The position numbers and the translations under genes were made by a program. Positions 7,759 to 25,872 of a DNA stretch of 32,786 nt are shown piece after piece (position 1 is the first letter of the stretch; each line of letters starts with the position of its first letter). The notes beneath the pieces were generated by a model. That model had not been told where the DNA came from. It made no database searches and saw only the letters and a list, made by a program, of their open reading frames with translations. The DNA is from an uncultured Eubacterium sp. (GTDB lineage Bacteria > Bacillota > Clostridia > Lachnospirales > Lachnospiraceae), in contig CATLIX010000039.1 in assembly GCA_949959185.1 (NCBI GenBank), positions 1 to 32,786 of the forward strand, written 5' to 3'.

Positions 7759-7820
7759 GGAATTGATTTATACAGGTGTGTTTTGCAAACGACGAGGGCT
7801 GAACGGTTACCTTCCGTCCG

Positions 7821-25154: not shown

Positions 25155-25193
25155 TATCCATTTTCAGATTTTATAAAAAGTTTAGATTTAAAG

Positions 25194-25353
25194 TTACAGT
25201 TCACACCTTAGCCCGCATGGGAAAATGCATGTTTACATGCGATTTTCCCCATACGGGCTAAGGAAGGGAACACCATATTATGAGCAAAGTTAGCTGCATG
25301 GCAGCGAGAAAGCGCCGAAGGCGCCTTTGCGAATGGTGTGTTGTGAACTGTAA
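25194..25353. repeat. 160-bp nested palindromic element between groES and the C_GCAxxG gene
   Basis: A perfect 12-bp outer stem (TTACAGTTCACA, 25194-25205, with TGTGAACTGTAA, 25342-25353) encloses two arms. Arm A (25206-25263) is a long hairpin, CCTTAGCCCG / CGGGCTAAGG extended by ATGGG and GCATGT segments. Arm B is closed by ACACCAT (25270-25276) / ATGGTGT (25333-25339), then GCAAAG (25284-25289) / CTTTGC (25325-25330), which encloses two small hairpins (GCTGC-ATG-GCAGC and GCGCC-GAA-GGCGC). No protein of note is encoded. It reads as a MITE-like element or an unknown structured RNA. Confidence 0.85.
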
Positions 25354-25368
25354 ATGCTGCCAGGCTGC

Positions 25369-25382
25369 TCAAATTTATTTGA
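25369..25382. repeat. AT-rich palindrome shared with the LUD leader
   Basis: TCAAATTTATTTGA, identical as reverse complement to the core of 31751-31772. Read on the minus strand, 18 bases agree with that site with one mismatch. Confidence 0.6.
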
Positions 25383-25401
25383 TAAAGGCTGCGTTTTCAT
25401 C

Positions 25402-25872
25402 TCAGTCCAGGGGATGTTCTTCTATATACTGCTCCATAATAGCAGCGGCCATCCGGACTAATTTCCCGCAGGGACGTTTTTTATAGTATTCTTCTGTTCG
25501 TTCCGCCGGTGTCGGCTCATCCTTTTTCCGGTTCAGCCCCAGCAGTTCCCGGCAGACAATGGAGCCATTTTCCTGCTCAAAGGCCGCCGCAAGCTGCTGG
25601 ATTCTCTCATAGTGCTCTTTTTTACCCTGCATGTCTCCCGGCGTATCATATCCATACAGGATTCCCGCTGTCAGAAACATACCGCTGACGGAGCCGCAGA
25701 CCTCCCGCAGCCTGCCCATTCCCCCGCCGAAAGAGGAACTGAGCCTGGCCGCTGTTTTCTCATCCATACCATGCAAATCTGAAAAGGCCAGAAAAACCGC
25801 CTGGCTGCAATTATATCCTTTTTTGAAATTGTCTTCTGCTATCTGTCCGTATCGGCTCTCTTCAAAATACAT
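25402..25872 (-). CDS. C_GCAxxG_C_C family redox/metal protein
   Basis: 156 residues. The family cysteines are C22 (GYNCSQAV), C59 (VCGSVSGM, the GCAxxG-like site), C107 (SIVCREL) and C135 (RPCGKLV), in the order that names the family (PF09719). These proteins probably bind a metal or cluster and often neighbour redox genes; the reaction is unknown. Length is typical. AGGAGAAGAAAA lies before the ATG. It is the last gene of the run ABC exporter, DUF2156, CobW, CobW fusion, C_GCAxxG, all on one strand with gaps under 50 bases. Confidence 0.88.
   Translation of the reverse strand: MYFEESRYGQIAEDNFKKGYNCSQAVFLAFSDLHGMDEKTAARLSSSFGGGMGRLREVCGSVSGMFLTAGILYGYDTPGDMQGKKEHYERIQQLAAAFEQENGSIVCRELLGLNRKKDEPTPAERTEEYYKKRPCGKLVRMAAAIMEQYIEEHPLD

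Follow-up and report, generated by a model that had tools for sequence, protein, structure and literature searches.

A dispersed palindromic element, most likely a MITE of Lachnospiraceae, in front of groES

Among the MITE-like repeats of bacteria, ERIC/IRU, RUP, NEMIS/Correia and RPE have been reviewed together (Delihas 2007, PMC2229807). The section of the review that characterises them describes non-coding, intergenic sequences of less than 200 bp with terminal inverted repeats and stable stem-loops, flanked in several cases by target duplications (PMC2229807), and in these features they resemble the element treated here. The same section gives most of these repeats TA tips and places them in other bacteria, and by this description they are set apart from the present element (PMC2229807). 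The tips of the element read GTWAC, and the TA termini of ERIC/RUP-type repeats are absent from it. The element differs further from the ERIC/RUP type in its 8-bp duplications, in the several interiors that occur behind one set of ends and in having been found only in the family sample of Lachnospiraceae.

Another likeness is offered by QMITE1 and QMITE2 of Coxiella burnetii, MITEs that are themselves long palindromes. According to the part of the publication that describes them, QMITE1 measures about 400 bp and has inverted ends of 21-28 bp, while the direct repeats of QMITE2 measure 7-9 bp and shorter versions of it occur as well (PMC5896051). Compared by that description, the element departs from both in its 8-bp duplication and in the several interior types behind one end set (PMC5896051). 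MITEs are a known kind of element, and the family to which the present one belongs was not recognised in the open full-text literature searched.

The nested palindrome between the preceding gene and groES

The window, which is the whole stretch of 32,786 nucleotides analysed here from an uncultured Eubacterium sp., holds a palindrome at 25194-25353, in the small gap between the gene that precedes groES and the groES promoter. Its outer arms, TTACAGTTCACA (25194-25205) and TGTGAACTGTAA (25342-25353), form a perfect 12-bp inverted repeat, which a preliminary description made from the letters of the window had read as an outer stem. The long hairpin and the pair of short hairpins, each with a 3-base loop, that had been reported inside this stem are likewise present in sequence and folds (Table 1), and no T run follows the element on either strand, again as reported. 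Folding of 25190-25360 on both strands, as that description had proposed, gave -79.5 kcal/mol on the plus strand against a shuffle mean of -46.3 (z -8.29) and -83.4 kcal/mol on the minus strand against a shuffle mean of -42.2 (z -10.99), with 0/200 shuffles folding as well on either strand. The nested palindrome is real and far from chance.

Relatives ending in GTWAC...GTWAC place the best borders of the element at 25193-25354 on the minus strand, one base further out on each side. On this strand the element runs from the end GTWACAGTTCA through a core and a long hairpin, H, to the end TGAACTGTWAC. The core is composed, in this order, of CGCCATTCGCAAAG, hairpin P4, a linker, hairpin P5 (GCTGC-NNN-GCAGC), TAACTTTGCTCATAA and GGCG, and H most often ends in ATGCAAGCAT. 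Across copies the terminal inverted repeat GTWACAGTTCA is common to both ends and the core hardly varies. H does vary, and 58 copies fall into 24 clusters at 0.8 similarity.

The terminal G is replaced in the window copy, and the flanking 8-mers match at 2/8 positions, so that the earlier remark that no clear target-site duplication can be seen is right for this copy. Having neither the terminal G nor the 8-bp duplication, the window copy is old or rearranged. The element comprises about 160 bp with no transposase gene inside, and a mechanical ORF of 68 aa (25280-25486) overlaps it.

Table 1. Parts of the element in the window, with position, strand and basis of assignment
Feature	Position	Strand	Basis
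Whole element, probable type A MITE	25193..25354	-	Strand reading TTACAGTTCAC...CATTCGCAAAG...GTGAACTGTAAC; alignment with relatives, end analysis, dispersed family
Left terminal inverted repeat, terminal G replaced	25342..25354	-	Sequence; consensus GTWACAGTTCA
Conserved core: outer core stem, GCAAAG/CTTTGC stem, two small hairpins	25268..25338	-	71 distinct cores (that of the window included); alignment A1
Small hairpin P4, GCGCC-TTC-GGCGC on the minus strand	25312..25324	-	Folds; pair changes in relatives
Small hairpin P5 (minus-strand GCTGC-CAT-GCAGC), almost unchanged throughout alignment A1	25293..25305	-	Folds
Long variable hairpin, module H	25206..25263	-	Folds; 24 sequence clusters among 58 copies
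Right terminal inverted repeat	25193..25205	-	Sequence; end comparison with relatives

Dispersal, target duplications and placement among genes

Searched as DNA, the own genome yielded the full copy itself, a second match at E 1e-8 and nine others that are chance-like (E 0.9 or worse). Within the genus, matches at E 0.01 or better occur in 17/29 genomes, and a single genome has as many as 24 matching stretches. The core pattern, scanned against the genome collection, gave 59 stretches, 47 of which are located in records titled Lachnospiraceae, Eubacterium, Roseburia, Agathobacter, Lachnospira or Acetatifactor, and the remaining 12 in records with wider names, for example Clostridiales, Eubacteriales, Clostridia or Bacillota. 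With a relative as the query, matches were obtained in at least 41/397 genomes and at least 37/334 genera of the family sample, and in a class-wide sample of 291 genomes, which includes a few members of this family, nothing matched except the window's own genome; as at most two candidates were scored per genome, both surveys give lower bounds. With this many sampled genera of a major gut family carrying it, those who annotate small RNAs and terminators there will meet the element. Searches for mobile carriers gave no match in the plasmid collection, three partial matches in unannotated fecal records of the phage collection, and in viral contigs no match to the core pattern or to a 48-78 bp end-to-end pattern.

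The end motif GTWACAGTTCAGCC, with one mismatch allowed, has 93 matches in the own genome (49 + 44), the reversed control having 0 + 0. A lone end-like motif, GTAACCGTTCAGCC, is found on the minus strand at 7797-7810 of the window and is possibly the remnant of another copy.

Flanks were analysed for 58 distinct copies out of 102 core hits, the other hits being left out for unreadable ends, repetition of the same flanks or closeness to the end of the locus. In these 58 copies the flanking 8-mers agree at 59.7% of positions versus 34.8% for shuffled partners, and only length 8 stands out, flank lengths of 3-7 and 9-12 being at or near background. Exact 8-bp repeats flank 12/58 copies (shuffle mean 0.24, maximum 2 in 1000), and 19/58 show an identity of at least 7/8 (shuffle mean 0.60, maximum 3). 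The right end is misplaced in two of the 58 rows, L122 and the first L034 copy; leaving these out, exact repeats are found in 12/56, and both rows remain in the mismatch, neighbour-gene, close-copy and strand counts.

An empty site was found for a diverged type A copy on contig C2 of the own genome (L209:2272-2435), where AAAAAGGA[element]AAAAAGGG stands against a single AAAAAGGG in the relative G004. The left flank of the G004 site aligns up to the junction; on the right, AAAAAGGGTGAAA (about 13 bases) matches and is followed by extra G004 DNA before the alignment resumes.

The preliminary description had left two readings side by side, a MITE-like element and a new RNA conserved at groES, and had proposed a search of the same genome and of other Lachnospiraceae. 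This search brought up many dispersed copies, which supports the MITE-like reading, and the common terminal inverted repeats, the 8-bp target duplications and the one empty site bear out the same half of the alternative. At a probability of about 0.92, the window element is an old copy of a non-autonomous, dispersed MITE of Lachnospiraceae. A transposase provided in trans would recognise the inverted ends GTWACAGTTCAGCC, and insertion into 8-bp targets would create the 8-bp direct repeats seen at the copies and at the one empty site. The interior is non-coding and palindromic, and most copies are intergenic, many of them directly behind the 3' end of a gene. The strongly folded intergenic sequence, which could be mistaken for a new regulatory RNA, is explained in this way.

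The msr-msd region of retrons also consists of outer repeats, short hairpins and a long hairpin. A retron-like region would share with the element this general layout only, and the many dispersed copies with 8-bp target duplications speak against it to a degree that leaves it next to no probability.

Neighbouring genes were taken from a simple ORF caller for 52/58 MITE copies, those with an ORF on both sides, and overlap with an ORF of at least 150 aa was seen in 5/52. Of copies adjoining the 3' end of an ORF, 23/38 are located within 11 bases or overlap it versus 5.6 expected from uniform placement in their own gaps, and the same test gave 4/48 versus 7.1 expected for copies adjoining a 5' end. 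Between co-directional genes 34 copies were found, 21 in the orientation of the genes and 13 in the opposite one.

At groES, a type A copy precedes the promoter in 5/29 genus genomes (G000, G026, G010, G011 and G019), loose core-pattern hits without ends in G002, G007, G009 and G024 having been taken as chance in this survey. The 24/29 groES loci without a type A copy mean that conservation at groES across relatives is absent, and the second of the two early readings, that of a structured RNA conserved at this gene, is not supported. In the four lineages concerned (G000 with G026, G010, G011 and G019) the copies have the same orientation and a right end within one base of the same promoter distance. 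This regularity, which persists although the upstream gene of G019 differs by reading, would be in line with retention of the copy between upstream gene and groES promoter as an insulator or terminator. Such a role is nevertheless very unlikely, as so many groES loci do without the copy, as no T run follows the element, as a short gap before a promoter also simply tolerates inserts and as the 3' ends of genes are favoured by the family in general. The copies of G018, G020 and G025 include the hairpin type of G019, and none of them is at groES; because these three genomes are without a groES copy and the ends of the G019 copy are intact, the latter is suggested to be a separate, later insertion. 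The groES site is read here as tolerated and repeatedly used by the MITE, with no dedicated role proposed in groES expression, and it may attract different inserts.

In G004 (L042) another element, with ends like TTCAGAACCCC...GGGGTTCTGAA, is located upstream of groES just before the promoter, and a similar right end is present in G028. At a greater distance upstream, G004 also has an element with the ends of the MITE.

Pairing and strand signals

In alignment A1, 24/45 consensus pairs have at least one sequence in which both sides are changed and the pair is kept. Close copies differ by 49 both-sided Watson-Crick changes versus about 8 expected by independence, a comparison that is descriptive as copies and contexts are not independent. 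The preliminary description had held that compensatory changes, in few copies conserved at groES, mean an RNA or regulator. The changes are indeed seen, but for this element they are not decisive because palindromes can also be kept at the DNA level.

Selection on an RNA would be expected to tolerate G-U over A-C on the RNA strand. Single mismatches inside helices were counted after Watson-Crick-only folding, which for whole elements gave G-T 23, A-C 22 and others 59 on the element strand and G-T 21, A-C 22 and others 59 on the reverse strand. The variable hairpin, with one representative for each of the 24 H clusters, gave G-T 8 and A-C 8. As a control, 22 distinct tRNAs from the same loci gave G-T 5 and A-C 0 in sense and 0 and 4 in antisense, a small number with the right outcome. 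If G-U is admitted in the folding, the G-U pairs of H number 55 on the element strand and 61 on its opposite. H stays paired with no signature of G-U over A-C, arguing against selection on one RNA strand. Where compensatory-looking changes are met in bacterial intergenic hairpins, this strand test (G-U versus A-C) is advisable before an RNA is claimed.

The long hairpin, which changes its sequence freely yet stays paired, is most likely maintained at the DNA level, for example by homogenisation of the arms through template switching in replication or because a DNA hairpin is required. Template switching has been published as a mechanism by which hairpins can remain paired and, in the part of that work which describes it, changes both sides of a pair at once without RNA selection (Monttinen and Loytynoja 2022, PMC8794818). 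It differs from the systems above in being a mutation mechanism and not an element family, and it may have acted on H.

The conserved core, on the other hand, leans to one strand, the one opposite to the element strand, a signal that is ambiguous as to an RNA role. The opposite strand folds better in 49/58 copies (by a mean of 4.9 kcal/mol; H alone in 37/58), and the G-U pairs of the core number 110 on the opposite strand versus 19 on the element strand. One-sided changes between close copies amount to A-C 52 and G-T 21 on the element strand, and the mismatches of H on this strand to 32 pyrimidine-pyrimidine versus 4 purine-purine. These strand counts are not independent, as copies share ancestry, and the strand signals may be largely inherited from common ancestors.

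The better folding and the higher number of core G-U pairs on the opposite strand are what a structured RNA would show, stand-alone or cis-acting, passenger or functional, in which the two-hairpin core is held in one stem and for which the likelier strand is the one opposite to the element (window plus). Consistent with it are also the near-invariance of the core, at some unpaired positions too, in records from several genera, a conserved internal loop that in the cores as read on the opposite strand has GA opposite GA, a type B core that differs in sequence and keeps the topology, and the excess of both-sided Watson-Crick changes between close copies. Core conservation may, however, only reflect recent spread, the variable hairpin is without preference for G-U over A-C, and the 21 versus 13 of 34 copies between co-directional genes amount to no clear orientation bias. 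Rfam had no family at gathering score in the window, where four weak matches near the element lie far below the cut-offs, and none in seven relatives; in nine further loci only tRNAs scored above the gathering score, and three sRNA families scored below theirs. A structured RNA is a very unlikely reading of this sequence.

Interiors behind the same ends and candidate movers

The ends of the MITE are not tied to the type A interior. Among the loci scanned, 26 distinct elements, 24 of which belong to the own genome, have no type A core that could be recognised; their lengths range from 73 to 698 bp. Type B possesses another core sequence that folds into the same topology, one stem with two small hairpins, plus a long hairpin, while further interiors behind the same ends are type C (142-143 bp), a 133-bp type and hairpin-only forms of 73-86 bp; L174 is a mixed form with a decayed A-like core. 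Type B also occurs in tandem, with copies arranged head to tail that have the junction GTTAGTAAC in common; the own genome has two of them (L209:3339-3686) and the sister strain G026 three (L216:1178-1699).

At the upper end of the size range are two giant hairpins with the same ends, one of 698 bp in G018 (L189:1093-1790; exact 8-bp duplication, z -18.6) and one of 579 bp in the own genome (L190:637-1215; flanks 5/8, z -17.7). Inspection of ORFs in the two giants found only short overlapping ones, none readable as a transposase, and beyond the ends the two are weakly similar (best E 6.5e-4). Exact 8-bp duplications flank several other non-A elements as well.

This build, modular and wholly palindromic, is unusual. 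A tentative and rather unlikely extension would see in it a modular superfamily in which one set of ends carries exchangeable folding interiors of 73 to 698 bp, with cores A and B differing in sequence but of one topology, and in which the folded shape itself is selected, as single-stranded DNA or as opposite-strand RNA. If so, the folded shape could for example be a substrate recognised by the mobilising enzyme.

With respect to the mover, duplications of 8 bp point to a transposase of the DDE type. Four families were tried (IS66, IS256, IS1595 and ISL3), and in none of them was a parent transposase with the ends of the element seen. The 208 loci (862 kb, mostly stretches of 3-8 kb) held no end pair longer than 698 bp with a flanking repeat, and the only long end pair with such a repeat is the 698-bp hairpin. 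An IS256 parent is not supported, as this family is present in 4/10 genomes without paired ends like those of the element, nor are IS1595 and ISL3 parents, with no match in the 10 genomes searched.

IS66 insertion sequences have a GTAA tip and an 8-bp duplication, a likeness to the element of which one exact example was found among the loci. On these features the element might have arisen by deletion from an IS66-type insertion sequence and be mobilised by an IS66 transposase, the more so as IS66 genes are present in 16/29 genus genomes and as 7/30 IS66 loci have a flanking inverted pair starting with GTAAGCG, one of them with an exact 8-bp repeat. All seven recognised ends, however, read GTAAGCG further inward and not GTWACAGTTCAGCC as in the element; 0/30 IS66 loci have a border pair like GTWACAGTTCAGCC, and 23/30 are without a recognised GTAAGCG pair. 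The GTWACAGTTCAGCC matches listed at IS66 loci differ at up to 4 places and, by reading, are not paired at the borders. In addition, the element-bearing genomes G010, G011, G012, G018, G020, G025 and G028, some of which are incomplete drafts, have no IS66 match at 1e-10. An IS66 parent is thus not supported, and descent of the MITE from IS66 is improbable.

The contig of the own genome that carries the filled counterpart of the empty site (C2) also holds two repeats of other kinds. At L209:5745-6034 lies a second dispersed palindromic element of 286 bp with the ends CAGGTAATTGCGAAACT...AGTTTCGCAATTGCCTG, which in the own genome has CATGAAATGACA on both flanks and in the sister genome G026 more than 20 matches. 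A third dispersed repeat, at L209:4003-4191, starts with a TTTTATCTTACAGGAAAG hairpin and has many matches in G004 and G003.
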